Origin: Pseudomonadales bacterium
Lineage (GTDB): Bacteria; Pseudomonadota; Gammaproteobacteria; Pseudomonadales; Azotimanducaceae
DNA length: 64,000 nt
Direction: 5' to 3'
Assembly (NCBI GenBank): GCA_022827905.1
Contig: JAJEIQ010000054.1
Span: forward strand, 62,001-126,000
The first letter of the stretch is position 1. Each line of letters starts with the position of its first letter. Below, one piece after another: positions 4,702 to 30,964 of this stretch. The position numbers and the translations under genes are program-made. The notes beneath the pieces were generated by a model that had not been told where the DNA came from, made no database searches, and saw only the letters and a list, made by a program, of their open reading frames with translations.

Positions 4702-4758
4702 TTTTTGGCGTGCCGAGCAAGCCAACATGGCGTCTTTGCACCCCCAAGGCCTTCTGCA

Positions 4759-5985: not shown

Positions 5986-8097
5986 GTGCTTAATCTCGGT
6001 TGGGGCCGCAAAGTGCCGGTGATGATGCAGGCCGAGGCCAGCGAGTGCGGCTTGGTGAGCATGGCCATGATTTCCGCCTTCCACGGCCGCCATCTGGACT
6101 TGGCCGACATGCGCAGCCGCGGCCTGCTCAGCGCCCGCGGCGCCACGCTCAACGACTTGGCGGCAGTGGCGGCTGCGGAAGGTTTCCAAACCCGGGGACT
6201 GCGCTTGGAGATGGACCATCTGACCCAACTCCAGGCGCCCGCCATCCTGCACTGGGACCTCAACCACTTCGTGGTGTTGGTGAAGGCCGGACCGCGCCAG
6301 GTCCGCATTCACGACCCGGCCTTGGGGCTGCGCAAGCTGTCCTATGGGGAAGTCTCCCGGCATTTCACCGGCGTCGCCTTGGAATTGCGGCCTGCCCCAG
6401 GATTCCGGCTGCAATCGCCGCCACCTAGACTGAGGATCTGGCATCTGTGGCGCGGCACCGGCGCGCTCAACAAGAATCTGCTGGTCATCTTCGCCCTGTC
6501 GATGCTGCTGCAGCTCACGCTGATCGCAGCGCCCCTGCATCTGCAGTGGGCCATTGACCAAGGGGTTGCCCATGCGGATGGTGAACTGATCGCCCTGCTG
6601 GCGTTCGGCTTCCTCTGCGTTCTGGCCATCCAACTCGCGGCCCAGTTGCTGCGCGGTTGGCTGATCGTGCGCTTGACCCACCTAGTGGCATTCGAGTTCG
6701 CCTGCAACCTCTTGGCGCACATGCTGCGGCTGCCGCTGGACTGGTTTGAGAAGCGGCACCTGGGCGATCTGACCTCCCGATTCGGCTCCCTCGGCCCGGT
6801 TCAGGATGCCCTGACCCAAGGCTTGGTGACGGTTTGCGTGGACGGCTTCATGGCCTTGGCCATGCTGGTGATGATGCTGGGCTACGACGCGGGCCTAGCG
6901 GCCATCGTGCTGTGCGCGTGCGGCCTCTACCTGCTCGCCCGGCTGGTACAAATCCCGGCCTTGATGCGCACGTCGATGGACGAGATTCATGCCGGCGCGA
7001 AGGCGGAGACCAGCTTCCTCGAGTCCATGCGCTCAATGCCCGCGGTGCGCGCCTACGGCCAGGAGTCCGGCCGCCTCGAACGCTGGCAGAACCATCAAGC
7101 GGAAGCGCTGAACGCCGGCATTCGGCGCGCCAAGCTGCTGTTGGTCGGCGACGGCGCGCTGACCCTGATCTTTGGCGTGGAAACCATCGCCGTCATCACC
7201 CTAGGCACCAACCACGTACTCGACGGCGCCCTCTCCATCGGCATGCTCTACGCCTTTTTGAGCTACAAGGGCAACTTCACCGGCCGCTTCGGCGAGCTGA
7301 TCCGCCAAGGCTTGGATCTGCGCCTGTTGCGGGTGCATCTCGAACGCCTGTCCGACCCCTATTCGGCGGTGCCCGAATTGTCCTTGAAGCCGCCCCCCGC
7401 GCAGCCGGTGAGCGGAGACCTTGAACTCGACAGCGCGGGCTTCCGTTATGGCGAGCGGGAGCCTTGGGTGCTGAAGGACGTGAGCTTGGCCCTGCCGGAA
7501 AGCGCCTTCACCGCCATCATCGGGCCATCCGGAGGCGGCAAGACCACCTTGCTCAAACTGCTGCTCGGCCAAGCGGCCCCGACGCGCGGCGAGCTGCGCC
7601 TTGCCGGGCGGGTGGTCGATGACGAATGGCGGCAGCGCTACCGGCGCTCGATCGGCGTGGTGCTGCAGGACGACGTCCTGTTCGCCGGCAGCCTTGCGGC
7701 CAACCTGTCCCTGTTTGACCCCAATCTGGACCTGCAGCGCCTCCAGGAGGCCTGCCGGCTCGCCGCGGTGGATGAGCTCATCGCCAGCTTGCCGATGGGC
7801 TTTGAAACCCTTGTCGGCGACATGGGTTCCGCCCTTTCCGGCGGCCAAGTGCAGCGCCTGCTGCTTGCCCGGGCGCTGTACCGCAAGCCCCGCTTTCTCT
7901 ATTTGGACGAAGGCACAGCCCATCTGGACCCCAGCAACAAGGCCAGAATTCACGAAGTGATCGCTCACTTACCATGCACCCGAGTGGTCGCCACCCACGA
8001 TTTGGACCTCGCCGCCTTGGCCGACCAAGTCTATTGGGTGGAAAACGGTGCGGTGCGGGCGATGGAACCCCATGAATTGACTCACCGGACGGCTTGA
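5986..8097 (+). CDS. Peptidase C39-containing ABC exporter (colicin V/bacteriocin type)
   Basis: A 703-residue exporter that removes double-glycine leaders from peptides and pumps the products out. The N-terminal C39 peptidase is intact: catalytic Cys21 in QAEASECG, His94 in LNHFVV and Asp110 in IHDPALG. A six-helix membrane domain spans about 155-430. The nucleotide-binding domain has Walker A GPSGGGKTT, signature LSGGQ and Walker B FLYLDEG. The GTG start directly abuts the hlyD stop codon. It is a different lineage from the NHLM-type C39 exporter at 25821-28031, so this locus has two leader-peptidase exporters. Its substrate is not obvious; it could serve the 13801 precursor, the doubtful micro-ORF at 4630, or a distant peptide. 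Confidence 0.92.
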   Translation: MLNLGWGRKVPVMMQAEASECGLVSMAMISAFHGRHLDLADMRSRGLLSARGATLNDLAAVAAAEGFQTRGLRLEMDHLTQLQAPAILHWDLNHFVVLVKAGPRQVRIHDPALGLRKLSYGEVSRHFTGVALELRPAPGFRLQSPPPRLRIWHLWRGTGALNKNLLVIFALSMLLQLTLIAAPLHLQWAIDQGVAHADGELIALLAFGFLCVLAIQLAAQLLRGWLIVRLTHLVAFEFACNLLAHMLRLPLDWFEKRHLGDLTSRFGSLGPVQDALTQGLVTVCVDGFMALAMLVMMLGYDAGLAAIVLCACGLYLLARLVQIPALMRTSMDEIHAGAKAETSFLESMRSMPAVRAYGQESGRLERWQNHQAEALNAGIRRAKLLLVGDGALTLIFGVETIAVITLGTNHVLDGALSIGMLYAFLSYKGNFTGRFGELIRQGLDLRLLRVHLERLSDPYSAVPELSLKPPPAQPVSGDLELDSAGFRYGEREPWVLKDVSLALPESAFTAIIGPSGGGKTTLLKLLLGQAAPTRGELRLAGRVVDDEWRQRYRRSIGVVLQDDVLFAGSLAANLSLFDPNLDLQRLQEACRLAAVDELIASLPMGFETLVGDMGSALSGGQVQRLLLARALYRKPRFLYLDEGTAHLDPSNKARIHEVIAHLPCTRVVATHDLDLAALADQVYWVENGAVRAMEPHELTHRTA

Positions 8098-8170
8098 TGC
8101 CAGCGAGCAAGCCACCTATCCCAAAAGTACATACATTGGTATTCACAATCATCCAAGCAAGGAGTAGCCT

Positions 8171-8503
8171 ATGCTCAAACTGACTCCCGAGAGCTTGAAA
8201 ATGACCAACCGAAGTGGCAGACCAAGCGATGCAAGCGCACGTTCAACGCCCACCCGGCTGTTCCGCAACGGCAACAGCCAGGCAGTGCGGATTCCAAAAG
8301 CGCTTGCTTATGAGGGCGTTGACCTTCCAGTGGAGATTGAACGCCGGGGCGATGAACTGATTGTGCGTCCGGTCAAGCGAAAGCTCGACGGGCTTGCCGC
8401 GGCGTTCCGGGCGCTACGTCCCCACGTCCAAGGGTTTGAGCGCGACCAACCCATTCAAGAACCCCGGAGTTGGGACGCCGACCGGGCCCCGCTGCGGGAT
8501 TGA
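8171..8503 (+). CDS. vapB: VapB-like antitoxin (SpoVT/AbrB swapped-hairpin)
   Basis: A 110-residue antitoxin. The AbrB-type DNA-binding core is TRLFRNGNSQAVRIPKALAYEGVDLPVEIERRGDELIVRP (split here only for description), residues about 28-70; the remaining C-terminal part should wrap the VapC toxin. Unlike typical VapB proteins, which begin almost directly at the core, this one has about 27 extra N-terminal residues rich in Ser and Thr. The start at 8171 is supported by AAGGAG at 8159-8164, six bases upstream. The toxin gene follows after 17 bases. Confidence 0.85.
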   Translation: MLKLTPESLKMTNRSGRPSDASARSTPTRLFRNGNSQAVRIPKALAYEGVDLPVEIERRGDELIVRPVKRKLDGLAAAFRALRPHVQGFERDQPIQEPRSWDADRAPLRD

Positions 8504-8520
8504 CCAGGCTGTTTATACCC

Positions 8521-8922
8521 ATGCGCTACATGCTTGACACCAACATCTGCATCTACGCGATGCTCAATGACAATGAACACTTGGATCGCAGGCTGGGCGA
8601 GTGCCAAACCGGTGATCTCCTCATGTCAACCATCACTTTGGCCGAGCTTGAGACCGGTTTTGCCAAAAGTGACGATCCAGCCAAGGCGCGCAAAGCGGCG
8701 CAAGCGGTTCTTGACGCCATCACCACAGTGCCTTTCGATGCGGCGGCGGCTCGCGCCTTCGGCCGCATTCAAGCGGCTTCGCCTGCCAAACGGGGGGCCT
8801 ACGATCGCCAAATTGCTGCCCACGCGATATCCCTTGGCCTCGTCTTGGTCACCAATGACGAAAAGGACTTTGGTGGAATTCCAGGTCTGACCGTTGAGAA
8901 TTGGACGATGCCCTCGAACTGA
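8521..8922 (+). CDS. vapC: VapC-like PIN-domain ribonuclease toxin
   Basis: A 133-residue PIN-domain toxin, expected to cut tRNA or rRNA when released from VapB. The acidic metal-binding set is visible: Asp in MLDTNICIY near the N-terminus, Glu in LAELETG, Asp in YDRQIAAHA, and the final TNDEKDF motif. I chose the ATG at 8521 since the domain begins at once (MRYMLDTN); an in-frame ATG at 8470 would overlap vapB and add 17 unlikely residues. It ends 6 bases from the convergent halogenase gene. Confidence 0.9.
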   Translation: MRYMLDTNICIYAMLNDNEHLDRRLGECQTGDLLMSTITLAELETGFAKSDDPAKARKAAQAVLDAITTVPFDAAAARAFGRIQAASPAKRGAYDRQIAAHAISLGLVLVTNDEKDFGGIPGLTVENWTMPSN

Positions 8923-8928
8923 GTCAGG

Positions 8929-10203
8929 CTAACAACCGAGGCCTTGGGCCATCTGGGCGTAGCTGGTGAGGGGGAATCCGCACCGGCGCTCCCAGTCGGC
9001 CTTGTCGATGTATTGTTGGTTCATGAGTTCGATCATGTCGTCGAACTTCTGGAGTGCGGAGCAACCCACCACCTCCGGTGACACGGCTTGGCGGTATCGT
9101 GGCCAGGCCTCATCCCGGGCGTGGCGCCAGAATGGGCTGTCGTACCGGGAACCGCAGCAGTAGTGCCAACCGACGAACAGGCCGTTGCTGAGCACGTTGT
9201 TGACCAGGAAGCGATTGATCACCGGCACGTCCCGTTCAATATGCTCCGCCGAACGGTTGAGCCGCATGTGGAGGACCATCCCGACCTCCATCTGGGCGAA
9301 TCCGATCGCGGTCGCTTCCAAGGGTTCCATGAAAGCGGCTGCGTTGCCGATGCGAACCACCGCGCCGTCGTAGATTTGGCGGTGGACGAAGTTGGGGAAC
9401 GGTATGACCGCGCGTTGCTCGAATTCCCCCACGCCATCGGATTCAAGGAGTGCGTCGAAATCCGATTCGACATCGGCAAGGCTCGACAGGTCGCGGTTGA
9501 AGATGTACCCGTAGGACGTATGCACGGTAAGCGGAATGACGAAGACCCAGCCATGCGGACGGGCGATTGCACGGGTGTAGGTATGTTCCAGCACCGGCCC
9601 GTCCCGTTCCGCCTCGATGATGGCCGGACAGCGCCGGATGACCGCTGTATTGGTCGGAATGAAGGGAATCTCGATGTGCTCGTCGGCTTGCTGTTCCCTG
9701 GGAAATCCGCGGGCGTCGAAGACTAGGTCGTAGCGTTCCGGCGCCCGTCCCTCAAACGTCACCTGGGCGCCGCCCTCCACCCGGCTGATGGCGATCACCT
9801 TCGCATCGATGTGTTGGGCGCGCGTGCTTTCCTGTAGCAGGTCGCCCATGACGTCCGCGGAAAGGTGGTAGGCGTAGGACACTTCCTGCGGTGCGAAGTA
9901 GTGGATGAAGTCGCGATCGCGCCTGCCCCAACCCTCGAAGGACACGCCGTACTTGCGGGTTCCGTTCAGGCGCTGTTGGATGGCCTCATGGGGCAAGCCG
10001 GTCAACTGCTGCAATTGCGGCACCAACGTCGGCCAACTGCCTTCGCCGACGCCAATCACCGGGATGCGCGAGTCGTAGATGTGGTGCAGTTCGTGGTCGC
10101 TGTCGGGGTGCAGGCGGGTGACGCTGGCGGCCGCCAAAGCTCCGGCGGTGCCCCGCCCGACGACCGCAATTCGCTTCAAACTGTTGCTGCCAGGAACGTT
10201 CAT
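8929..10203 (-). CDS. Flavin-dependent tryptophan halogenase family protein
   Basis: A 424-residue member of the Trp_halogenase family (PF04820), which use FADH2, O2 and halide to make hypohalous acid and halogenate an indole ring or related substrate. The N-terminal FAD motif reads GRGTAG (16-21); the lysine that carries the haloamine/HOX equivalent appears as Lys84 in TRKYGVSFEGW. The diagnostic WxWxIP motif is modified to WVFVIP. It is about 100 residues shorter than free-tryptophan halogenases, which may mean a larger substrate such as a peptide. The start at 10203 begins MNVPGSNSLKRIAVVG; an upstream in-frame start at 10272 would overlap the amidohydrolase gene. It is co-directional with that gene and lies 3.6 kb from a RiPP precursor whose core ends in Trp. 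Confidence 0.85.
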   Translation of the reverse strand: MNVPGSNSLKRIAVVGRGTAGALAAASVTRLHPDSDHELHHIYDSRIPVIGVGEGSWPTLVPQLQQLTGLPHEAIQQRLNGTRKYGVSFEGWGRRDRDFIHYFAPQEVSYAYHLSADVMGDLLQESTRAQHIDAKVIAISRVEGGAQVTFEGRAPERYDLVFDARGFPREQQADEHIEIPFIPTNTAVIRRCPAIIEAERDGPVLEHTYTRAIARPHGWVFVIPLTVHTSYGYIFNRDLSSLADVESDFDALLESDGVGEFEQRAVIPFPNFVHRQIYDGAVVRIGNAAAFMEPLEATAIGFAQMEVGMVLHMRLNRSAEHIERDVPVINRFLVNNVLSNGLFVGWHYCCGSRYDSPFWRHARDEAWPRYRQAVSPEVVGCSALQKFDDMIELMNQQYIDKADWERRCGFPLTSYAQMAQGLGC

Positions 10204-10258
10204 GCCAATGGCCCAGTCAGCCCGCTGATCAACGCCCGCCGATGCCCAAGGGCCGCGC

Positions 10259-11398
10259 TCAGGCCGCGGCAAGCGGCAACTGGAACACTTCCCGCACGTT
10301 GTCGCGCAGGATGGCCTTCCGCTCGGCCTCCGACAGGTTGGCGGCGTGTTCCGCCAAGAGCGCTTGGGAACGGGGCCAAGTGGAGTCGGGGTGCGGGAAG
10401 TCGTTGGCCCAAAGCAGCTGCCTGTAGTTCATCAGGTCCTTGGTTGCGAAGGCCACCCAGTCATCTTGGAAGGTGGTGAAAACGTTGGAGCGCAAGTACT
10501 CGCTTGGCAGTTTGGACAGCCCCTCGATGATGCCGTCGTCGGTCTCGTTGTAGGCGGCGTGATCCAGCCGATACGCCCAATGCGGCATCCAGCCGGCGTC
10601 CGCCTCGGCGCTGACCATCTTCAGACTAGGGTGGCGCTCGAACACCCCGCCGAGCAGCATCGTGGCGATGACGTCCTGCACGTCGCGCACGATCTGCATG
10701 AATTCGTGGATACGCTTGCCCCGCACCTGCTTCTTAAGCAGCGTTGCCACGCTGCGCGGACCTCGTCCGTTCAAGATGTGGAAGCACACCGGCATCTCGA
10801 GGTCCACGGCGCATTGCCACAGCGCGTCGTAGTCGGGATGGTCGTAGTCCTCGAAGTGGGGTATCCCCGGCAGCACCATGCCCACAAAGCCTTGCGCCTT
10901 GGCGCGTTGAAAATCGTCGATGGCCGCGTCGATGGAGCGCACCGAGGTGAGGCCCAAACCGAACAGCCGCCCCGGCAGGCCGGCGCAGAATCCTTCTAGC
11001 CAGCGGTTGTAGGCGTTGAGGCAGGCATCCTTGTAGTCGATGTCGGCGTGGCCGAGGACGATCATGCCCACGGAGGGATAAATGACTTCCGCCGCGATGC
11101 CGTCGCGCTCCTGGTCGGCGAGGCGGCATTCGGGGTCCCAAGCGCTGCGCCTGCATGTCTCGAAGGTGGCCTTGAGGATGTGGTATGCGCGCATCGACGG
11201 GATCATCCCCGCGCCATCGACCATGCCCACCGGGATGAGCGTGGTCAGGCCTTCGATCGCATAGACGTGCCGGCCTAGGCTGTCGAGCTCGATGCGCGGT
11301 GCCCGATCCCGGAACCCGGGGTCCATGTGGTCGCTGAAGCAGGCGGGTGGCTCCAGAACATGGGAGTCAGCCGAGATCGCGCCTTCAAAGAACATCAA
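10259..11398 (-). CDS. Amidohydrolase-2 family metal-dependent hydrolase
   Basis: A 379-residue TIM-barrel hydrolase of the ACMSD/amidohydrolase-2 group (PF04909), whose members decarboxylate or hydrolyse aromatic and other acids. The metal-binding residues are partly visible: Asp and His in SADSHVLEPP near residue 12, His in CFHILNGRG, and the late Asp in WANDFPHPDS. GGGAGAAG precedes the tandem ATG-ATG start. The halogenase gene follows after 55 bases, so both are likely co-transcribed. Whether it works on the RiPP or on a small aromatic substrate is unknown. Confidence 0.8.
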   Translation of the reverse strand: MMFFEGAISADSHVLEPPACFSDHMDPGFRDRAPRIELDSLGRHVYAIEGLTTLIPVGMVDGAGMIPSMRAYHILKATFETCRRSAWDPECRLADQERDGIAAEVIYPSVGMIVLGHADIDYKDACLNAYNRWLEGFCAGLPGRLFGLGLTSVRSIDAAIDDFQRAKAQGFVGMVLPGIPHFEDYDHPDYDALWQCAVDLEMPVCFHILNGRGPRSVATLLKKQVRGKRIHEFMQIVRDVQDVIATMLLGGVFERHPSLKMVSAEADAGWMPHWAYRLDHAAYNETDDGIIEGLSKLPSEYLRSNVFTTFQDDWVAFATKDLMNYRQLLWANDFPHPDSTWPRSQALLAEHAANLSEAERKAILRDNVREVFQLPLAAA

Positions 11399-11539
11399 CT
11401 CTTCTCCCTTGGGACAAGGCGTTGTGCGGAACTACCGAATGAACCAGCACATTGGCAGAGAATAGGTTTTGTTCGGTGATTTGACAATCGCTCCGCCTGC
11501 GGCGCGCCAACGGCCCGCCCATCGGACCCGGAGACGGAG

Positions 11540-12769
11540 TCAGAAGCTGTACGTGAAGTCGATGCCTAGGAAGCTGTCGCGCCGTCCCGCATAGGTCAGA
11601 TCTCGCGGATCCGAACTTAAGTTCACGATCGCTTCCAATCGCACGGTCCAGCTAGCCGACAGGCGGCGCCTCAGTTCGAAGTTCAGCGCCCGGTAGTCAT
11701 GGCTCAAGTCGCCGAGAACCCCTAGCCCAAGCTCGGTGCCCGGCACGTCGTTGAAAGCGAGAAAGCCAGCGATGAAGAGGTCGTTGGCCCAGATGCTTGG
11801 TGCGCGACGCCCTCGTTCGTCGTAGAGCCACTCCGCGAGCAGGGTGAGGTCCGCGGCGGAGCCGAACAGGCCGTACAGCGAGCGTTCCGCGCCAAATATG
11901 AAGGCGCGGTAGTCCTCCTCCTCGCCAAGGAGATTGCGTGTCCCGCTGCGGTGAATGGCTTCCAGCTTGTAGAGCAGGGGGCCGGTCGTGATTTGCGCAT
12001 CGACGCCGAATTGCCGGATCTGCTCGTAGTGCGGGACGAAGGGCGCCTCGCTTTCCGGCAATGGGCTGGGCTCCTGAGCGGCAAGGAACGAGGGTTCGCG
12101 GCTGGTCCCGGCAAAGGCGCTCAGGCCGAAATCCAGCACGCCCAGCGTATGGCTGTAGCGGAACGCAACATCCACATGGCGCTCTTCCGCGCCGCTCTCG
12201 TAGGTCGCCTTCTTCCCCACCAGGCGGTCTCCCCGGAGGCGTCCGCCACGCCCCGGAAACGTGCGCTTGCGGTGGTACGGCAACAGGAAGGACTCCGCGA
12301 TGCCCCAATCGCCGGAAATCGTCAGATGCGCCATGGGCTGGCCCAGTTTGGGCCGGTCGCGCGGGTGCTCGATGAGGTCGAGTTGGTTGACGATGTCCAC
12401 TAGGTTGTGCAGTTCGGCCACGCCCCAGAAAACGCGGTCGAAACCCAGCCGCAACTCCCAGGAATTGTCATTCCAGTAGCCGTGCATCAAAAGGTAGGCC
12501 TCGCGCAGGTCCGCGTGGGTCCGCCGTGAATCGGCGCTGTCGTAGCGGTACAGCGGCGTCACGGTATAGCTGGCGCTCTGCCCAACCTCCCCGTACAAGG
12601 TCGGCTCAACCACAAACCCGCCGGTGCTCGAACGCTGGCCGGGGAAGGCGGGCGATTGCGGATACCATCGCGCCTGCAGGCTCAGATCCCCCGAAAGATC
12701 AAGCGGCTGCGCCTCTGTGGCGGCCGCGGCCGTGAGCGCAAGGACCGCGATGGCGGCGCCAAGTCGCAT
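11540..12769 (-). CDS. Outer-membrane beta-barrel protein (DUF1302-like), partner of LolA-like/MMPL system
   Basis: A 409-residue protein with a signal peptide (ALTAAAATEA near residue 20), alternating polar/hydrophobic strands throughout and a terminal phenylalanine (GIDFTYSF), the signature of an outer-membrane barrel inserted by BamA. Its start codon overlaps the stop of the LolA-like gene (TAATG), so the two are translationally coupled. In many proteobacteria such a barrel, a lipoprotein-sorting-like protein and an MMPL/RND permease are encoded together; here the permease is on the far side of the RiPP genes (28568-30910). I infer a trans-envelope export path; the substrate is not shown. 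Confidence 0.7.
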   Translation of the reverse strand: MRLGAAIAVLALTAAAATEAQPLDLSGDLSLQARWYPQSPAFPGQRSSTGGFVVEPTLYGEVGQSASYTVTPLYRYDSADSRRTHADLREAYLLMHGYWNDNSWELRLGFDRVFWGVAELHNLVDIVNQLDLIEHPRDRPKLGQPMAHLTISGDWGIAESFLLPYHRKRTFPGRGGRLRGDRLVGKKATYESGAEERHVDVAFRYSHTLGVLDFGLSAFAGTSREPSFLAAQEPSPLPESEAPFVPHYEQIRQFGVDAQITTGPLLYKLEAIHRSGTRNLLGEEEDYRAFIFGAERSLYGLFGSAADLTLLAEWLYDERGRRAPSIWANDLFIAGFLAFNDVPGTELGLGVLGDLSHDYRALNFELRRRLSASWTVRLEAIVNLSSDPRDLTYAGRRDSFLGIDFTYSF

Positions 12770-13641
12770 TAACGTACCCGGCGAAGCGCCGTTTGGGTCA
12801 ATTCCCTTTCGTCGAGATTGGTGCCGAACTCAAAATCCGTCCAATGAAGTGTGGTTGTCGCGCCGGTCAGATGATTCACCATGGTCTGCTTCCCCGCCCG
12901 CCAGTAGCGGCCTAGGTATTGCCGATAATCCGCAAAGGCGAGCGTCTTCAGGTGCGAGCCGCCCCGGTCGTAGAGCGCCATCTTCCAAGGCCGAAGCTCG
13001 ACCGTGTCCTGCCATACGATCTTGCGGCTGTAGCTCGATTTCTCGTCCAGGGGGAATTGCTCGGTTACCGTGCAGCTAAGTTCGCCGCAGGGCTCGTCGC
13101 GAAGGTACTTGTGCCTGTACTCCTCCACCTCCGCGGAACTCATGTCCTCAAAGGAAAACTCGCTGCCCATGAACGACCCTGCGCGCTTCGCAGCGCTGAT
13201 GCGCTTCACCCTTTTCAGGGCGGGCAGATACAGCCACTGGTCGTCCATCGTGTTGATGTGGGCGTGGGTCAGGAGCGCAGTTCCCTGCACGTCCCGAGGT
13301 TGATCGAAAACGAACAGGCTCTTGTCCCCATCCCCGGCAACCTCCAGCACCTTGAAGCGCATCTGGCGCACGCTCTCCCGGCCGTGCCGGTCGCGCAGCA
13401 CCATCGTCAAGCCGGCGGTGAAGTCGCCGAATCCCTCACTGCGGGCGTTCGACTCAAGCGCGATGCGCAGGCCTTTCTCCTCCGGAGATTCTGCTTGAGC
13501 AAGGACGGGTCCAATGGGCAGGCAAGTGCACAGCAGCGCCAGAACCCGGAGACGGAACGAAGTACCTCGGGGGATTGGGAGACCTTTCGCCGCGCTTCGC
13601 CCGGTAAAGCTCTTTTCGGCGGTTTCGTGGTCGGGACGCAT
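12769..13641 (-). CDS. LolA-like outer-membrane lipoprotein-sorting protein
   Basis: A 290-residue periplasmic protein with a signal peptide (RLRVLALLCTCLPIGPVLAQA) and a LolA/LolB-type half-barrel domain. The typical run SLFVFDQPRDVQGTALLTH, then DDQWLYLPALKRVKRI and GSFMGSEFSFEDM, matches the 'outer membrane lipoprotein-sorting protein' family found beside MMPL permeases. Such proteins carry hydrophobic cargo across the periplasm. The start at 13641 has AAGGAG ten bases upstream; longer in-frame readings run back over the divergent precursor gene and are rejected. It is transcribed away from the RiPP precursor, sharing a 159-base intergenic region with it. Confidence 0.8.
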   Translation of the reverse strand: MRPDHETAEKSFTGRSAAKGLPIPRGTSFRLRVLALLCTCLPIGPVLAQAESPEEKGLRIALESNARSEGFGDFTAGLTMVLRDRHGRESVRQMRFKVLEVAGDGDKSLFVFDQPRDVQGTALLTHAHINTMDDQWLYLPALKRVKRISAAKRAGSFMGSEFSFEDMSSAEVEEYRHKYLRDEPCGELSCTVTEQFPLDEKSSYSRKIVWQDTVELRPWKMALYDRGGSHLKTLAFADYRQYLGRYWRAGKQTMVNHLTGATTTLHWTDFEFGTNLDERELTQTALRRVR

Positions 13642-13724
13642 CCGCGCAGGACTCCTTAAGGATGGGGTGGATTGTACCTTCATTCCCCGACCGTGACATT
13701 TCCTTTGAAATTTATGCAATTTAC

Positions 13725-13800
13725 TTGCGCTAACTTCGATTTCATTGTATGTTCCCACTTGCGGGAGTGACCCGTCACGTCGAAATTGAAGGAGACAGCT
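13725..13800 (+). promoter_or_regulatory. Candidate promoter, small palindrome and ribosome-binding site of the RiPP precursor gene
   Basis: In the AT-rich part of the divergent intergenic region, TTGCGC (13725-13730) and TATGTT (13748-13753) are separated by 17 bases, a weak sigma-70-like pair. GTGAC-CC-GTCAC (13767-13778) is a small palindrome in the expected leader transcript. AAGGAG (13789-13794) sits six bases before the ATG at 13801 and fixes that start. The ribosome-binding site is strong; the promoter call is tentative. Confidence 0.4.
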
Positions 13801-14052
13801 ATGCGAACTGGCGATGAAATGCAGCAGCATATCGTTGAGAAGTCGGCCTTGGACGAGGAGTTCAGGAAGGCTTTGCTCGCAGACCCGAGAAACACCATCA
13901 GTCAGGAATTGGGCATCACCATTCCTGGGTCCATGAACATCGAGGTTCACGAGAGCGATATGCAGACCGTGCATCTAGCGTTGCCGCCGGCTCCGAACAT
14001 GACCGAGGAGCAGCTTGAAGCCATTTCGGCTGGCCTTTGCTGCTGCTGGTAG
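13801..14052 (+). CDS. RiPP precursor peptide: NHLP leader with LCCCW core
   Basis: An 83-residue precursor. Residues about 14-63 form a nitrile-hydratase-alpha-like leader (FRKALLADPRNTISQELG, then IEVHESD, then HLALPP), the NHLP family described for RiPPs with bulky leaders. Residues 67-78, MTEEQLEAISAG, match the double-glycine consensus LSxxELxxIxGG at -12, -11, -7, -4 and -1, predicting cleavage after Gly78. That leaves a five-residue core, LCCCW, with three adjacent cysteines ideal for YcaO cyclodehydration and a C-terminal Trp that could be halogenated. It is the only + strand gene between 10 and 21 kb and faces the gene of unknown function at 14154. Modifications are inferred from neighbours. 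Confidence 0.88.
   Translation: MRTGDEMQQHIVEKSALDEEFRKALLADPRNTISQELGITIPGSMNIEVHESDMQTVHLALPPAPNMTEEQLEAISAGLCCCW
14035..14049 (+). other. Predicted mature core peptide, Leu-Cys-Cys-Cys-Trp
   Basis: These are the five codons (CTT TGC TGC TGC TGG) after the predicted leader cleavage at Gly78 and before TAG. Three identical TGC codons encode the cysteines. If the YcaO protein acts on all three, the product would carry up to three thiazolines. The cut site is predicted from the double-glycine consensus, so the mature peptide could also start at Gly78. Confidence 0.6.
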
Positions 14053-14061
14053 TCCGGGCGG

Positions 14062-14126
14062 CCGGCGACTAGCCGGTGAGGATACTCACATCGGTGCCCA
14101 TCCCGCCGCGGTTCCGGACGCGGCGG
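14062..14126. terminator. Two GC-rich hairpins between convergent precursor and unknown gene
   Basis: CCGGC-GACTA-GCCGG (14062-14076) is a 5-bp stem and CCGCCGCG-GTTCCGGA-CGCGGCGG (14103-14126) a perfect 8-bp stem with an 8-base loop. They lie just after the precursor stop and before the 3' end of the opposing gene. Neither is followed by a clear U-run, so they may act as a bidirectional terminator, as an mRNA 3'-stabilising structure for the precursor transcript, or both. Confidence 0.45.
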
Positions 14127-14153
14127 AGGGCTTGCCTTTGTTGCCCGCCCGTC

Positions 14154-15272
14154 TCAGAAAGGAACCGCCCCGGATAGGACCATGAACACGTAGGCCTTCG
14201 CTTTTCGAAGCTGGCCTTCGGATATGACCAGCTTGATGTGGTGAATGCCGCGCAGCAGCACGTAACGCCCGGATTTGGCAAAAATCGGGGTCGGTTTGGA
14301 GACCCAGCCTGCAAGGGCCGGAAGCTTCTCCTGAACCACCAGATCCTCCTGTCCCAAGGCTTCCAGCAACGGGTCCCAGTCGTTCAGTCCATCGAGCCAG
14401 TAGCGGGAATCGTTGGTGTATCGCTGCTTGACGATGAGCGCCAAGCCGAGCGTCGGGCCCAAGCCGTCATCGCGCACGTCCAAGTACACCCCGGTCCGGT
14501 CGAACTTCACTTGCTCCTTGAAGCGGGCAAGCACGGTTTCGACGGCTGGGATCTGCCCCGGCCAACCGGTGGCTTCAAGGAAGGCGCAGACTTCGCCCTG
14601 CGTTCTGAAGCCCATGACCGCTAGGCGAATCGCCCGGGACCGGGACGGGAACACGCCGAACGCATCCAGGCGCGCATCCTCCGGCTGGGCCAAGTAGGCT
14701 CGCTGGACGTGCTTCCCCTGCGCTTCATTCCGCTCCCAGCCGACGCAGGAAACGAGCGCGTCAACCACCGCATCGACATCAGCCAGCTGGCCAGCACCGC
14801 CGACTATCGGGCGCTCAGCGGGCCGCACGAAGATCCCCGGATGCGGGCGTTCGCCATCCGGCGCCGAGCCAATGTCAAACTCCAACATCATCTTGTGGCC
14901 GACGATTTCACGCAAAGGCGAGCCTTCGGCATCCATTTGCCCGAACAGCCGCGTGATCGCCTTGGCGGTCTCATCCGTTGGGTCGAACCAGGCGCGGTCT
15001 CGGAAAAACGCTGCCGTTCCGGTGCCGCTGGCCAGCGACACGCCCAGGTCCGCCACCCGCTTGGGTTCATGCAGCGGCAATTCAAAGCCAAAGGGCAGGG
15101 CGCCGATGGTGGCCGGAAACTCTGCGGCGCATTCGAGGATGCGCTCCCATTGGCGGTCTCCGATCAGTACCGGCGAAATCCGGTTGCGAAAATGCCCGAG
15201 CAGATCGCCCATGGAACCGCCCTCCTTGGCTAGGCGGCTCTGGGTCTGCGCGACGGCCTGGTCAGTGTTCAT
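14154..15272 (-). CDS. RiPP-cluster protein of unknown function
   Basis: I do not recognise this 372-residue protein. It has no signal peptide or membrane helix and looks like a soluble, globular alpha/beta protein. Conserved-looking stretches include DLLGHFRNRISPVLIGDRQW near the N-terminus, LASGTGTAAFFRDRAW at about 80, HKMMLEFDIG, GVYLDVRDDGLGPTLGLAL and IHHIKLVISEGQLRKAKAY at the C-terminus. The last segment has the look of a buried beta-hairpin core. GAGGAG lies six bases before its ATG, and only nine bases separate it from the YcaO gene, so it is in the YcaO operon and is probably a tailoring or precursor-handling protein. Confidence 0.6.
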   Translation of the reverse strand: MNTDQAVAQTQSRLAKEGGSMGDLLGHFRNRISPVLIGDRQWERILECAAEFPATIGALPFGFELPLHEPKRVADLGVSLASGTGTAAFFRDRAWFDPTDETAKAITRLFGQMDAEGSPLREIVGHKMMLEFDIGSAPDGERPHPGIFVRPAERPIVGGAGQLADVDAVVDALVSCVGWERNEAQGKHVQRAYLAQPEDARLDAFGVFPSRSRAIRLAVMGFRTQGEVCAFLEATGWPGQIPAVETVLARFKEQVKFDRTGVYLDVRDDGLGPTLGLALIVKQRYTNDSRYWLDGLNDWDPLLEALGQEDLVVQEKLPALAGWVSKPTPIFAKSGRYVLLRGIHHIKLVISEGQLRKAKAYVFMVLSGAVPF

Positions 15273-15281
15273 GTAGTCTCC

Positions 15282-17636
15282 TCAGGCGATTACAGGTGCG
15301 GGATTCACGTCGGCTTCGGCGAGAGGGTGCTTGCGCCTGCCCATGCTAACCGGCACGTCGTACAGGCGCCCCGGCGCAAATCGCGCCCAAAAGTGGCGCA
15401 GGCCCGGCACGATGACCCGCACCACCGGCATGCCTATGTCCGGCCGGGTCTGGTCCAGCACCAGGAACTCCAGGCCCTTGGCCTCAACCAGCGCACGGCA
15501 ATGCTCCACGTCATCGCGCAGGTCTGCGGATTCGATCACCGGATAGTGCGAGGCTTTCCTAAGCGGCGCATCCTCTGCCTGCGCCAGCCAGGGGCAGTTC
15601 GCGAGTCGAGCCGTCCGCCACCATTTTAGAGCCAGGGGATCGTCGATCATGGGCCGCCCTTGGCCCCCGCCCGGACGTGGCAGCCAGGTCAGGCACTGAT
15701 TGACCTCGCAAACCGCGCGCAGCGCTGCGATGCGCGCATCCGTGTGGGCGCCGGCACCGTAGATGATGTCCTCGGTTTCCGCGTCCGGCCTGCGGGAAAG
15801 TGCAACGAAGGCGGGAATGCCGATGTCGGAGGTTAGGTCGAGCATCCACAGCTCGCGCTCCGAGCGGCGGTAGTAGTCTTGGGCGGATGCTAGGAACGCA
15901 TCGCCGAAGCTTTCGAGATCGACGCCGGGCAGGGTCAGCTCGTTGTACCACCAGATGGCGAAGGCGTCGCGCTCCACCAGTTCGAAGAAGCCTTGCAGGA
16001 TGGCCTCCTCCAAGGTGTTGCCGGCGGCGCAGCCGTTGGAGTCGGCAATCAGGTCGGCCAGCCCGCGCTGTTCGGCGGACATGCCGTAGAGCGCGGAGGT
16101 CGGCAGGTAGCGATGCCGCTGCTGGGTGAGCGACCAAACCGGCGACCAGTCGATCTCCGTATCGTCTTCCAAGCGCGGCGGAACGATGTTGTACGGATGG
16201 CCCTGGGCGTTGATGCGTTCGGCGTTGTCCAACTGCGCATCGCTGAACAGTTGCGCTGCGTTGGGATGGATCGCCTCGTCGTCCTGGGCGAAGTCGATCA
16301 GCCGCTTGCGCACGCGGATCTCATCCCCATGCAGGGCACCGGAATAGCGTTCCAAGGCCTCGCACAGCGCACTGGCCTCGGATTGCTGGGGCGTGCTGCC
16401 CTTGCCGGCGCTCTTGCTGCGCAGGCTGCGCCGCAACGAACTCAAGCTCCGGCTGCGCACGGCGAGATTGCTGCCCGCCCAATGCACGTGCAGCCAAGCA
16501 TCGGATTCATCGGTGGTGCGCTTGAGCCAGGTCACGACGCCGCTGATCGGGCTCACCAAGTGACGATACTTCGCCAGCGTGGCTTCCGGGGCCACTGCGC
16601 GCGCCCCCCCGCTGCTGAAATGGGTTTTGGGACTTGACTGCAGTTGCAGCGGAACCGGGGGCCGGTCGGGGCGGCGCAACGCTTCGTCGCCGCAGTCCGC
16701 ACACTGGGGCCGGCGCATGACGCGATGCTGGGAACTGGCAAAGGTGCCCACGTTCATCGCGATGGCCCGTTCGTGGATGGGCGCCGCCTCATCGAGCACC
16801 AGCCATTTTGCGATCTCCGCCGCAATCAGGCCGCACAGCGCTTCGAGCACCACAGGCTCCGCCGCGAACGCCTTGAAGGCGGCCTCCTCGCCGGCAACAT
16901 TGCGCAGGAAGCTGTGCACCTCCCGGTGATTGCGCAGGCGGCTGGCGAGGCAGTTCCAGCAGGGGCCCTGTCGGTCCGCTCGAAAGACGGGGCCAAACAA
17001 CGGTTCGATGCCACGGGGCCGCACCAGCATCCAGGGCGCCTGTGCCTCAAGCTGGCGCCGGTTCACCGCACGAAGGCGTTCCTCGAGGTAGTCATCGCAA
17101 ACAAACACAGTGAGTTCCGGATCGTCGATCACCACTTGGGCACCGGATTGTTCGAGGTGTCGAGCGAGCCGGCCGTCGTCATGGGCGAGCGCGACGCGCG
17201 ATTCGGCCAGCCGCTGTTCCGCCCAGAGGGGCGTGGCGCCCAAGGAGGACCAGTAGGCCGCCCGGTTTGGATTCATGCCGTGCTCGGCGGAGACGACGTA
17301 GCCCTTCGCGGCGAGCAAAGCAATGGCCCCGCGCACCTCCGCCGCCTCGTGGCGACTCTCCAGGGCGGCCACAATCTCAGCTTGCCCTCGCTCGCCGTCG
17401 AGAAGCGGCAGCAGATCGCAATGCAGGCTGCCGTGCAGCAGCGTGTTGAATGATTCGGAAACCAGCAGCGTCCGCTTGTCGCTGATGACCTCGGCCCGCA
17501 GGTGGGGGGTAAGCACCGGAACCGCCACCAAGCCCCCATCGGTTGGGGTGGTTCGCCGCATGATCCCCTGAGGGGGGTGCGCGTCCTTCCGCGTTGCCGA
17601 TCCGCGCTCCTCTACTGGATCAGTCCGCCCCATCAA
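15282..17636 (-). CDS. YcaO cyclodehydratase fused to E1-like leader-binding domain (TOMM synthase)
   Basis: A 784-residue fusion. Residues about 40-330 are an E1/ThiF-like partner domain of TOMM systems that binds the leader; its zinc ligands appear as CWNC (226-229) and CADC (312-315). Residues about 355-784 are the YcaO domain, which uses ATP to convert Cys, Ser or Thr into azolines; ATP/Mg-binding motifs are SEASALCEALERYSG (419-433) and NGCAAGNTLEEAILQG, then ELVERDA (534-558). The C-terminus is NPAPVIA rather than the proline-rich PxPxP ending of many azoline-forming YcaOs. No separate FMN dehydrogenase is nearby, so rings may remain thiazolines. Its start overlaps the stop of the AlkB-GlnE gene by 4 bases. 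Confidence 0.9.
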   Translation of the reverse strand: MMGRTDPVEERGSATRKDAHPPQGIMRRTTPTDGGLVAVPVLTPHLRAEVISDKRTLLVSESFNTLLHGSLHCDLLPLLDGERGQAEIVAALESRHEAAEVRGAIALLAAKGYVVSAEHGMNPNRAAYWSSLGATPLWAEQRLAESRVALAHDDGRLARHLEQSGAQVVIDDPELTVFVCDDYLEERLRAVNRRQLEAQAPWMLVRPRGIEPLFGPVFRADRQGPCWNCLASRLRNHREVHSFLRNVAGEEAAFKAFAAEPVVLEALCGLIAAEIAKWLVLDEAAPIHERAIAMNVGTFASSQHRVMRRPQCADCGDEALRRPDRPPVPLQLQSSPKTHFSSGGARAVAPEATLAKYRHLVSPISGVVTWLKRTTDESDAWLHVHWAGSNLAVRSRSLSSLRRSLRSKSAGKGSTPQQSEASALCEALERYSGALHGDEIRVRKRLIDFAQDDEAIHPNAAQLFSDAQLDNAERINAQGHPYNIVPPRLEDDTEIDWSPVWSLTQQRHRYLPTSALYGMSAEQRGLADLIADSNGCAAGNTLEEAILQGFFELVERDAFAIWWYNELTLPGVDLESFGDAFLASAQDYYRRSERELWMLDLTSDIGIPAFVALSRRPDAETEDIIYGAGAHTDARIAALRAVCEVNQCLTWLPRPGGGQGRPMIDDPLALKWWRTARLANCPWLAQAEDAPLRKASHYPVIESADLRDDVEHCRALVEAKGLEFLVLDQTRPDIGMPVVRVIVPGLRHFWARFAPGRLYDVPVSMGRRKHPLAEADVNPAPVIA

Positions 17637-20005
17637 GCGGGCGCGACAAGGGCGTCGATTTCGGCGGCGGCGCGGGAGGCGGTTTCGCAGACCACCGAGC
17701 TCAACGCCTCGAAATCTTCGTGCCCGCAGGCGCTGGCGATCAGGGACTTGACCTTCGGGTGCGCCGCTCGGGCGTCGAAGCCTGCATCGCCCACGAGCCG
17801 CAGGATGCTCTGCAAGTCGCGGTACAGGGCGGCCGCCTCGGCCAGGGGTGGCCGCTCATGGAGCAACGCTGCCGCGGTCGGGGCCGTGTCTTGGGGTTCG
17901 GCTTCGCCTTCGGTCAGTTGTAGGAATCGCGCTGCCCGCTCGATGTCCAGAAGACCGCCGCGCATGCCCGCATAGGAGGACACGCCAGCATCCGCTCTGT
18001 TTGACGAAGGCTGACGCAAGCTCGCCAGAAGTGACGGGTCAGCGGCGCGTTCGGCCAGAATCTCTCGCCGGACCTCGGCAAGACGGGCGTCGATCTTCGC
18101 ATCGCCGGATTCAAATGCGCAACGCGTCCGGGTCAGATCAGGCCTCCCGGCGCCGTCGGCCAATTCGGAGAGCCGCAGGTCGCGGCAGGCATTCGATTCA
18201 GGGGGGATGGGCGAAAAAAGCAGGCTATCCGCCGCCAGGTCGGTCAAGGACTCGCGCAAGCGCTTGCACAGCTGTTCGTAGCCAGCCGCCCGAGCGCCGT
18301 CACGCACAAAGAGGATGTCCATCGACGCGCCGGGATGCACTTCCCGGCTGGCGAGATCGCCCAGGAACATCGCAGCGACCCCGCCCCCAAGCATGGGTCC
18401 CCGTCGATCGACGAAGTCGCCGACCACGGCGGCCAGCACCGAGGTGATCGAGGCTTCGGCTAGGTTGGAAAGTGCGCAGGTTGCCTCGGCGGGAGCCAAA
18501 TTGCCGCGCACCACGTGCATGCCGATCTGAAACGCCTTGTCGTTGGACCAGTTGCGCACGATCTCAGCGGTCTCCTTGCCGTTGACCGCCGGAATTTCAG
18601 CGATCAGTTCCCGCATTGCTTGAACATCCATTTCCAACGTCCAATAGAGCCGCACCAGTCCGCGGCGGGCGATGGATTCGGATTCCGGATCCGGCCCGAA
18701 TCCTTTCGGCAGGTCGATGTCCGTGAATTCTCGATCGTCGAGGTTGTCGAGCAGTTCTGGATTGCGCTCAATCCAGCTGGCGAGCCGGGGGGCGACGCCG
18801 AAGATTTCGATGATCGCGTCCAGGGCATCGGGCCGCGCTGCGGAAACCGGGCTGTCGTAGGCGCTCCAATCGTCGATCTCCGGATAAAAGTGTTGGCGCC
18901 AGTGATCAACCAGGGGGTCCATCTTCTCAAACCAGCGCTTTGGCCGAATCACGATGTTCATCATGTCGGCGTAGGTTCCCGGCAACTCGGGCGACGCATC
19001 GGGGCTTAGGGTCTGCAGCAGCGGATAGTGGCGCGATGCCATCGCGTGATGGTCCGCATGGCGCTGCATGTTGAAGAACATCCAATTGCTGAACTTCCAG
19101 TCGGCGCTCCAGGAATGGCGTGGCATCACCTTTTCCCATTGGCCGTTGGGCTGCCGCACCCGGCGCAGCCCATAGTGCTGCATGTAGTTGCTGATTTTCA
19201 TCGAGAAAACGCAGCCTAGGCCGAGGAAGGCGAAGACCAGAACGGCCCAGATTCCGCTCATCCAGAACACCAGCCCCCACCAGAACGCTAACCCTAAGCC
19301 GTAGCGCCAGAACGGATTGCTGTAGTGCCATCGCGACAGATGGCGCCGGGCTAGGCGTTCGCCGGCGACTTTCCAGGAATTGGTAAGGTTGCTGGCAACT
19401 TCCTTTGGGAAGTAGCGCCAGAAGCTCTCCCCCTTGGGTGCGGAGCCGAGATCATGAGGCGTGCCGACCTTGGCGTGGTGGATGTAGACATGCTCCGTGG
19501 CGTACTGCGGGTAGGAGGCAGAGGCCAGCAGAAACTCGGCGAGCCGCCTTTCCCAGTTGGAACGTCGGTGAATCAATTCGTGGCCGACCACGAACACGGC
19601 CTGCGCTTCCATGGTCAAAATGATCGCCAGGATCACGTCCTCCCAAAGGGCGAACGGATTGGCGACCAGAATCTGCCACAGGCCGAAAACGAGCGTCGGC
19701 GGCCACAGGAACGCCCAAGCCCAGACCGGCAGGTTGTGCCAGAGCAGGCGACGTTGGGGCGTGTGCGCCGGGTCCATGTTGCGCCCGTCCACGCCGAAGA
19801 CCCGGTCGAGCGGCCCCGCGACGCTCATGAACAGAAACGGCGCCAGCAACCACCAGCCGCCTTGGATCAGGGCGATGAAAAGCAACGGAAAAACGGCCAA
19901 CGGCAGGTAGTGGGGGAGCGCGTTGCCGATCGAAGGCTCGATGGGTGGGGCGTTTTCAGCCTGGTCCGGACTCAGGGCCCCCACTGCGGCTGCGTCTGGC
20001 GGCAT
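17633..20005 (-). CDS. Fusion protein: AlkB-type di-iron membrane hydroxylase + GlnE-like adenylyltransferase
   Basis: A 790-residue two-part protein. Residues about 30-350 are an alkane-hydroxylase-type integral membrane enzyme with all histidine boxes: HELIHRR (142-148), EHVYIHH (171-177), NYMQHYG (273-279) and NMQRHADHH (312-320), plus the typical TPHDLGSAPKGESFW. It should hydroxylate a hydrophobic chain using O2. Residues about 385-790 resemble glutamine synthetase adenylyltransferase GlnE: APRLASWIERNPELLD, ALSNLAEASI, then LGDLASREVHPGASMDILF and MRGGLLDIERAARFLQL. The GlnE active-site motif (GKLGGRE, SDxDL) is altered to GDLASRE and ASMDI, so one catalytic Asp appears lost. It overlaps ycaO by 4 bases. 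The fusion role is unknown; the tail may be a regulatory or binding module. Confidence 0.85.
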   Translation of the reverse strand: MPPDAAAVGALSPDQAENAPPIEPSIGNALPHYLPLAVFPLLFIALIQGGWWLLAPFLFMSVAGPLDRVFGVDGRNMDPAHTPQRRLLWHNLPVWAWAFLWPPTLVFGLWQILVANPFALWEDVILAIILTMEAQAVFVVGHELIHRRSNWERRLAEFLLASASYPQYATEHVYIHHAKVGTPHDLGSAPKGESFWRYFPKEVASNLTNSWKVAGERLARRHLSRWHYSNPFWRYGLGLAFWWGLVFWMSGIWAVLVFAFLGLGCVFSMKISNYMQHYGLRRVRQPNGQWEKVMPRHSWSADWKFSNWMFFNMQRHADHHAMASRHYPLLQTLSPDASPELPGTYADMMNIVIRPKRWFEKMDPLVDHWRQHFYPEIDDWSAYDSPVSAARPDALDAIIEIFGVAPRLASWIERNPELLDNLDDREFTDIDLPKGFGPDPESESIARRGLVRLYWTLEMDVQAMRELIAEIPAVNGKETAEIVRNWSNDKAFQIGMHVVRGNLAPAEATCALSNLAEASITSVLAAVVGDFVDRRGPMLGGGVAAMFLGDLASREVHPGASMDILFVRDGARAAGYEQLCKRLRESLTDLAADSLLFSPIPPESNACRDLRLSELADGAGRPDLTRTRCAFESGDAKIDARLAEVRREILAERAADPSLLASLRQPSSNRADAGVSSYAGMRGGLLDIERAARFLQLTEGEAEPQDTAPTAAALLHERPPLAEAAALYRDLQSILRLVGDAGFDARAAHPKVKSLIASACGHEDFEALSSVVCETASRAAAEIDALVAPA

Positions 20006-20072: not shown

Positions 20073-21374
20073 TCAGGCGTTCAAGACATCGGCGAGACGC
20101 TCCAAGGCCTCGATGCAGAACGCGGAGGTTACGGATTCGGAGCCGTGGGCGAACTGCCCGACCACGCCCCACTTCAAGGCTTGGTCGCCGAATGCGAGCA
20201 GCTCGGGCCAGCTGCCGTCCTCGCGCTGCGGAGCGATGAGCGCCACCGTTGCCCGCTTCGCGTCGATGCGGTCTAGGCCTTCGATGTCGGCGAGCGCGGA
20301 GACGGCCTGCGCGGTCAGCAAAACGTTGCCGAATTCTCCTTGATTGTCGCGCAGGGCCAGGATTCCATCAAGAAGCGCAGGGCGCAGATGGTCGAGGGCG
20401 GGCCGTGCGCGAACTAGGGCGCGGGCAATTGCGTAGTAGGCCGTGACCCTGTCAGGATACCACTTGGAGGCGCCCTCCAGCTTGTCCTCGGCGATCATGG
20501 CTTCCAGCCACGTGCTGGCATCCCTTGTTTCGGGCCGGTCTCCCAAGTGGGCGATGACGTTCGCATTGACCACCGGGTCGGCCTCGATCCGAAACTCCGC
20601 CACCACATCGGGTTCGCCCTCCCCATGCATCCAAGTCATGAATCGGCCCTGCTCGTCCCGATTGGCCAGCATCGGGGCAACGTTCCTGCCCAGCGCAATC
20701 CAAGGGTGGGACGCAAGAACGAGGGAACACATGGCGGTGCTGTCCAGATCTGGGGGCAGATGACGGTAGTAGCGCCACAATCCGGGATGTTCCATCGTAT
20801 CGACCAGATAGGCCCGGGTGCGGGCGCACAGCGCCCGGGCCCGCTCTTCGTCGGAACGCTCCAAGGCCAGCGCGCACATCGCCGAAATGAAGGCGGGCCT
20901 TTCAAAGTGCCGGGGAATCTTCGGGTCGGCGACGTTGAATCGGATGCAGTGCCAGGCGCCGTTCTCAGCAACCGTCGATTCCAGGAATTCGAGGCCCCGG
21001 CGGATGCTGTTCCTGCCCTCCTTCGCCAGTGCGCCGGACGCCAGGGAACTCAAGCTGGCAGCGGCCGGGTTCACCCCAGGAGGACGAATCGGCGGTGCGG
21101 GGTCGTGCATGGTCCTCTTGAGGAACTCCAGAGAGGCCACGCCGGTTCGGGCCGCCTCCCGCTCCTCCTCGCTCCGCTTGCTCTTCGGCGGCAGCACCAA
21201 GTGCGTGACCGCATCGGTTTCCTCATGCACCTGAATCTCGTGGCCTTCGGCCAGCGTCACGCCGAGCTCCTGCTCAATGGCCGCTCTCGGCTCCGCGAGC
21301 AGGCGTTCGCGAAAGCCGCTGTCCGCCTCGGCCCTCGATGCGATGCGAGCTTCCGCGTCAATGGGCTTCTTCAT
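20073..21374 (-). CDS. NHLP-leader fused to terpene-cyclase-like (squalene/hopene cyclase superfamily) protein
   Basis: A 433-residue protein beginning with a full NHLP leader. From residue 21 to 78 it aligns without gaps to the RiPP precursor: FRERLLAEPR, IEQELGVT, IQVHE and HLVLPP sit at identical positions, and SEEEREAARTG ends at Gly78 just as TEEQLEAISAG does. After it, residues about 120-430 form an alpha-alpha toroid of the squalene cyclase/prenyltransferase superfamily, with repeat motifs ENGAW, NQGEFG and QREDGSW. DLDSTA (209-214) resembles the DxDDTA acid motif of class II terpene cyclases and keeps the middle Asp. The ATG at 21374 lies 42 bases from the divergent oxidase gene. It could cyclise a prenyl chain, or be a scaffold recruited by leader-binding enzymes. 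Confidence 0.82.
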   Translation of the reverse strand: MKKPIDAEARIASRAEADSGFRERLLAEPRAAIEQELGVTLAEGHEIQVHEETDAVTHLVLPPKSKRSEEEREAARTGVASLEFLKRTMHDPAPPIRPPGVNPAAASLSSLASGALAKEGRNSIRRGLEFLESTVAENGAWHCIRFNVADPKIPRHFERPAFISAMCALALERSDEERARALCARTRAYLVDTMEHPGLWRYYRHLPPDLDSTAMCSLVLASHPWIALGRNVAPMLANRDEQGRFMTWMHGEGEPDVVAEFRIEADPVVNANVIAHLGDRPETRDASTWLEAMIAEDKLEGASKWYPDRVTAYYAIARALVRARPALDHLRPALLDGILALRDNQGEFGNVLLTAQAVSALADIEGLDRIDAKRATVALIAPQREDGSWPELLAFGDQALKWGVVGQFAHGSESVTSAFCIEALERLADVLNA

Positions 21375-30910: not shown

Positions 30911-30964
30911 AGTGACCCAAGCATACGGTTGCCTGCCCCCGTGCGGCAACCGCCAGTTTCCGGC

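Follow-up and report, generated by a model that had tools for sequence, protein, structure and literature searches.

A probable srp cluster with the five-residue core LCCCW encodes a predicted prenyltransferase and a predicted terpene cyclase

What final product can be built on a ribosomal peptide whose predicted core is only five residues long? This question is raised by a short open reading frame at 13801-14052 (+) in a 64,000-nucleotide stretch of bacterial DNA, hereafter called the window. The first-pass annotation had read the frame as a RiPP precursor with an NHLP-type leader and the core LCCCW, had pointed to a YcaO protein and an NHLM exporter with a C39 peptidase nearby, and had held that no characterised RiPP has a core this small. 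Its description of the precursor, and of both neighbours (15282-17636 and 25821-28031), was borne out by our analysis; its claim of novelty fell, since LCCCW is already in print as the core of SrpE. Three genes went unmentioned there, namely those for a Trp halogenase, a predicted prenyltransferase and a predicted terpene cyclase. As far as the srp literature covered here goes, what looks new at this locus is that two poorly annotated neighbours of the precursor resemble a terpene-attaching and a terpene-cyclising pair.

The precursor gene runs from an ATG at 13801 to a stop codon at 14052 and encodes 83 amino acids, with the core at 14035-14049. Its translation ends in MTEEQLEAISAGLCCCW, which divides into a leader terminating in MTEEQLEAISAG and the pentapeptide LCCCW. 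The leader is recognised by the NHLP model TIGR03793 over residues 5-78 (E 1.4e-19) and scores 69.7 bits, above the curated cut-off of 50.9. C39-type cleavage sites follow a double-glycine consensus, and the 12 residues ahead of the core are compatible with such a site in its Ala-Gly form, Ala-Gly replacing Gly-Gly.

Orthologues with at least 70% identity were found at 87 loci, the window's own included, and all of them comprise 83 amino acids followed by a stop codon. Long or unrelated tails among homologues, which the annotation had regarded as evidence against its reading, were looked for and not found: the tail is LCCCW at 86 of the 87 loci and LSCCW at the other (L008). They give 73 different sequences as protein and 84 as nucleotides. 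Because the core codons vary silently among the latter, with four forms for Leu and both forms for Cys, the core is under constraint at the protein level. A chance or spurious frame was also considered, and is ruled out by 87 orthologues of conserved length and tail.

The closest relatives of the precursor are full length and 75-89% identical; they occupy 80 genome_contigs loci, the best 80 of 129, a selection that favours similar tails. By record title the orthologue collection spans six phyla. The 80 loci divide into Pseudomonadota (57), Acidobacteriota (15), Gemmatimonadota (4), Binatota (1), Myxococcota (1), Rhodothermota (1) and one record without a phylum, where the phyla are taken from the titles of metagenome bins, which can be wrong, and three of them stand on one record each. 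At least two genomes are seemingly counted twice via two collections (L003/L070 and L005/L100). Spongia is named in one record title (L063), and the titles of the remaining loci are bin codes. Three loci (L066, L087 and L098) encode, in addition to the LCCCW precursor, a second one ending in ISAG-MCCCGI near 7.4-7.6 kb (-).

The five-residue core and its chemistry are already known. In the published work on sponge microbiomes, as far as the text covered here extends, SrpE has the core LCCCW, its Cys residues are converted to rings and its Trp is brominated (PMC10286304; PMC10858898). The same excerpts assign cyclodehydration of the SrpE core to the YcaO protein SrpC, in agreement with the annotation's proposal that the neighbouring YcaO protein acts on the cysteines (PMC10286304; PMC10858898). 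With native SrpC, SrpE is described there as being modified incompletely, to a mixture of products, and clean conversion to three rings was obtained on a chimeric leader with MprC/MprD (PMC10286304, in part); conservation of the srp clusters among sponge species is also described (PMC9426513, in part). Because the window matches the printed srp clusters in its core, its NHLP leader, its nearby YcaO protein and its flavin-dependent Trp halogenase, we consider it very probably an srp cluster, together with ring formation by YcaO, bromination of Trp and release by C39; this identity rests on core, gene set and description, not on alignment with SrpE, SrpC and SrpI. In the portions of the srp papers covered, no difference in the core was found. 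A study in J Am Chem Soc in 2021 reportedly described these gene clusters of sponge microbiomes, with SrpE, SrpC and SrpI.

The YcaO cyclodehydratase at 15282-17636 (-), the counterpart of SrpC, is joined to a leader-binding domain of the cyclodehydratase-partner type (PF02624, E 5.1e-93; TIGR03604, TIGR03882). On a tree of 58 YcaO proteins, four phylum groups account for five label changes where the minimum is three; the proteins mostly group by phylum, and the tree is no proof of recent inter-phylum transfer. When 18 window proteins were compared with Pfam, none matched a nitroreductase-type azoline oxidase, an absence that fits rings kept as thiazolines. The MprE/MprC/MprD proteusins likewise combine an NHLP leader with a YcaO protein, whereas their cores are longer, carry two to six rings and, in the text covered, are served by a flavin azoline oxidase (PMC12455567) with no equivalent among those 18 proteins. 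The window precursor also matches PDB entry 8tb1, an NHLP leader chimera, at E 1.7e-8.

The halogenase, flavin-dependent, Trp-type and the probable counterpart of SrpI, is encoded at 8929-10203 (-) (PF04820, E 2.5e-46). Its W.F.IP and TRKYG regions, the second holding what we take to be the catalytic lysine, are kept in all 39 rows listed, and we assume for both motifs their usual roles in the enzyme. In the pathway that we propose, the NHLP leader would bring the YcaO protein to the core, where the three Cys would become thiazolines, and the SrpI-type halogenase would brominate the C-terminal Trp with the leader still attached. Published work reports both steps with SrpE, SrpC and SrpI, in the parts covered of two papers (PMC10286304; PMC10858898).

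Export would fall to an NHLM-type ABC transporter in two subunits. Subunit 2 lies at 22888-25821 (-) (TIGR03797, E 1.9e-203), and subunit 1, with its C39 peptidase domain, at 25821-28031 (-) (PF03412, E 1.3e-33; TIGR03796, E 5.4e-252); the two TIGR matches are below their curated cut-offs. From this exporter and the cleavage site we infer a third step, in which the C39 domain is expected to cut the precursor after ISAG and the pentapeptide would leave. A short HlyD-like secretion protein (28033-28578 (-); TIGR03794, E 4.4e-5, partial) and an MMPL/HpnN-like RND transporter with a sterol-sensing-like domain (28568-30949 (-); PF03176, PF12349, TIGR00921) are also present; the HpnN model TIGR03480 matches the latter at E 1.7e-37, far below its cut-off. 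Further genes encode a DUF1302-like protein, probably of the outer membrane (11540-12769 (-); PF06980, E 0.0073, below cut-off), and a LolA-like protein (12769-13641 (-); PF17131, E 1.6e-55). By inference, the MMPL transporter and these two proteins would suit a lipophilic product.

The 372-residue protein encoded at 14154-15272 (-) has no match among Pfam families, and its 29-row profile matched none of the PDB sequences, even at E 10. Its structure model (pLDDT 90.2) contains five consecutive alpha-alpha-beta-beta repeats. In a structure search with 504 PDB matches at E of at most 10, each of the 50 that were listed is a prenyltransferase, in most cases one acting on indole or Trp, with E 1.2e-5 to 1.3e-4 and probability 1.00. 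TM-scores against these enzymes, AmbP3 among them, are moderate, at 0.37-0.56. Seven residues, E64 in the first strand, E131, D133, R150, R211, R216 and K347, do not vary in any of the 10 members compared, which diverge to as little as 22% identity, and E64, R150, R211, R216 and K347 may correspond to the catalytic Glu and the basic diphosphate-binding residues of known active sites. On the strength of the model, the protein is a predicted ABBA-fold prenyltransferase. A count of the indole prenyltransferase family PF11991 gave 0 of 143 genomes of the class but also 0 of 14 control genomes, and is uninformative.

The second candidate, at 20073-21374 (-), carries an NHLP-leader-like domain followed by a predicted class II terpene cyclase domain, with the catalytic motif DLDST at 20736-20750. 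The N-terminal domain reaches 50.4 bits against TIGR03793, just below the cut-off of 50.9. Drimenol synthase comes first among the fold matches of the model (pLDDT 79.5; E 4.3e-11), which also include squalene-hopene cyclase and MstE, and a profile built from just the cyclase domain recovers drimenol synthase at the sequence level as well (E 3.2e-6). In that alignment the motif falls on DLDTT in 9mhs and on DLNTT in the D333N chain; its second Asp is the position changed in D333N drimenol synthase, and it is invariant in 28 of 28 aligned sequences. The window protein thus has its fold in common with the class II terpene cyclases (AsDMS/drimenol synthase, MstE and squalene-hopene cyclase) and, with drimenol synthase, also sequence and the aligned catalytic Asp, whereas the leader-like N-terminal domain is extra and DLDST stands in place of the DLDTT of drimenol synthase. 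A terpene cyclase that carries a leader-type fold itself would have an uncommon route into a RiPP maturation complex. A viral structure library gave four uncharacterised cyanophage proteins at E of at most 0.001, which are not informative. Between the YcaO and cyclase genes, 17633-20005 (-) encodes a membrane fatty-acid-desaturase-type domain (PF00487, E 9.6e-28) fused to a weakly GlnE-like domain (just below cut-off), for which oxidation of the lipid part is a possible role.

These genes accompany the precursor widely. Neighbours were counted at the 41 loci that extend 9 kb or more in either direction from the precursor, leaving out matches below 45% identity, a threshold that excludes hits to the precursor itself and also drops distant exporter matches. 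Counted in this way, the YcaO protein and exporter subunit 2 have homologues at 39 loci each, the leader-cyclase fusion at 38, the 372-residue protein at 36, the desaturase fusion at 34, the halogenase at 27, the LolA-like protein at 23, exporter subunit 1 at 20, the DUF1302-like protein at 19, HlyD at 13 and the RND transporter at 12. At the same identity of at least 45%, the cyclase fusion is found at 58 of all 80 loci (38 of the 41 long-flanked ones). Gene order differs widely among the 41 srp loci compared.

Because genes may lie more than 10 kb away, whole genomes were searched for 22 LCCCW genomes, hand-chosen from the 80 loci; most belong to groups other than Alpha- and Gammaproteobacteria, and L066, L083, L087 and L098 were added. 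The 372-residue family was found in 22 of 22, the cyclase in 21 and a halogenase homologue at 76-79% identity in 21; the cyclase and halogenase misses fall in one genome, G625. Internal stops interrupt a single prenyltransferase match of the 22, in G625, and a single halogenase match of the 21, in G637. When 398 genomes were sampled from the phylum, two held the 372-residue family, one of which is the window's own. The genes conserved in srp clusters go beyond precursor, YcaO protein and halogenase, and the 22-genome test suggests that prenyltransferase and cyclase belong to an obligate gene set. Three other candidates were dropped as cluster members, since none of the 80 loci holds a match of at least 45% identity to them: an amine oxidase (21426-22865), an amidohydrolase (10259-11398) and, at 4705-8097, a second pair of HlyD and C39-type ABC exporter genes.

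A precedent for the two candidate enzymes exists in NctPC, a fused protein of an ABBA-type prenyltransferase and an MstE-like cyclase that, in the text covered, transfers a C20 chain onto the Trp of a RiPP, where it is then cyclised (PMC13290415). Compared by description, prenyltransferase and cyclase are one protein there and separate proteins here, and only the window has the NHLP-leader-like domain on the cyclase and a core with azolines and a bromination site. By analogy, the two srp proteins resemble the NctPC pairing divided into separate parts. Hubrich et al. 2024 is said to be the primary NctPC paper.

As a fourth step, the protein at 14154-15272 would prenylate the core, most likely on Trp, and that at 20073-21374 would cyclise the chain; the desaturase-type protein may oxidise the chain, and the MMPL, LolA-like and DUF1302-like proteins may move the product outward. 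Prenylation and terpene cyclisation of the srp core seem to us an evenly balanced proposition. The end product would then be a ribosomal meroterpenoid, Leu-thiazoline3-(6-bromo)Trp bearing a cyclised isoprenoid, most likely on the indole, a reading to which we give a probability of about one half. In the srp literature covered here, no structure of an srp end product was found. If prenyltransferase and cyclase are obligate in srp clusters, chemists have sought the wrong mass; if the meroterpenoid reading is true, the product is a brominated, azoline-rich, terpene-bearing peptide whose masses are searchable in existing sponge extracts. The calculated [M+H]+ values (79Br) are 651.09 for the peptide lacking an isoprenoid, 855.28 if C15H24 is added and 923.34 if C20H32 is added, all showing the bromine pattern, and oxidation would raise them by 15.99.

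Other readings of the same genes have to be weighed against the meroterpenoid. The product may be the brominated tris-thiazoline pentapeptide and nothing more, with the ABBA-fold protein and the cyclase-like fusion acting as scaffolds or being inactive. The published SrpE work, in the portions covered, discusses cyclodehydration and bromination only (PMC10286304; PMC10858898), and the leader-like domain on the cyclase could serve docking rather than catalysis. Mere scaffolds or dead enzymes sit poorly, however, with genes kept as widely as the halogenase gene (22 and 21 against 21 of 22 genomes), with a cyclase Asp invariant in 28 of 28 sequences and with seven invariant residues in all 10 ABBA-fold members, and we regard this simpler product as rather unlikely. 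Far less probable still, to the point of being nearly dismissed, is the idea of a novel RiPP type that lacks known relatives and whose minimal core is without precedent: five residues are indeed few and three consecutive Cys are unusual, but the core is in print as SrpE and at least 80 further loci (the best 80 of 129) carry an orthologue.

The acceptor of the isoprenoid poses a question of its own, on which seven clusters with relatives of the prenyltransferase were compared: the window, L101, L143, L144, L145, L146 and L110. A weak, partial ABBA-fold relative at L142 (genome G563), near which no leader-type precursor was found, was left out. Trp or Tyr stands in the tail of a nearby precursor in five of the seven, with LCCCW in the window, ...IPPIKW at L101, ...AWQEFANAW... 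at L143, ...GGYY at L144, and ...DTW and ...DSY at L145, beside a halogenase homologue. The cores of the other two, L146 (RCCCCA) and L110 (GGECIC, VCQC and LCACM), are without an aromatic residue. Because relatives adjoin such cores, acceptors other than Trp have to be allowed for: the prenyltransferase may be real and modify some site other than Trp, for instance a Cys thiol or the N terminus, and the cyclase would then act on the chain attached there. The Cys-rich cores of L110, with their HvfB-type MNIO enzyme, and that of L146 favour such an acceptor, whereas the aromatic tails of the five other clusters speak for Trp, as does the closest described case, NctPC, which in the text covered puts its C20 chain on Trp (PMC13290415). 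We hold a non-Trp acceptor to be doubtful, and Trp prenylation followed by cyclisation stays our preferred reading.

Several of these relatives lie in clusters of some interest in themselves. At L146, 2668-2919 (-) encodes a second kind of YcaO-linked NHLP precursor, with the tail ISAG-RCCCCA, among homologues of the YcaO protein (60%), the prenyltransferase-like protein (41%) and the desaturase fusion (45%); within that 20 kb neither the halogenase nor the cyclase has a match. In L110, the region 5420-17621 encodes three NHLP precursors whose Cys tails are very short. Alongside them lie genes for an MNIO enzyme of the HvfB/BufB type and its HvfC-like partner, two prenyltransferase-like genes and one for a methyltransferase. 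On the Pseudanabaena galeata plasmid (L101), 6001-7794 encodes a distant relative of the 372-residue protein (20.6%, E 4e-5) joined to a 2OG-Fe(II) oxygenase domain, adjoining LanM and a Nif11 precursor that ends in KW; when profiles were used to compare the window cyclase and a 598-residue neighbour in this cluster, the probability was just 6%, with E 0.006. In the window itself, gene pairs resembling HipA/HipB (506-2054) and VapB/VapC (8171-8922) were recognised by eye. Finally, at L145, the NHLP precursors ending in DTW and DSY lie within 11460-15545 together with the halogenase homologue and two prenyltransferase-like genes.
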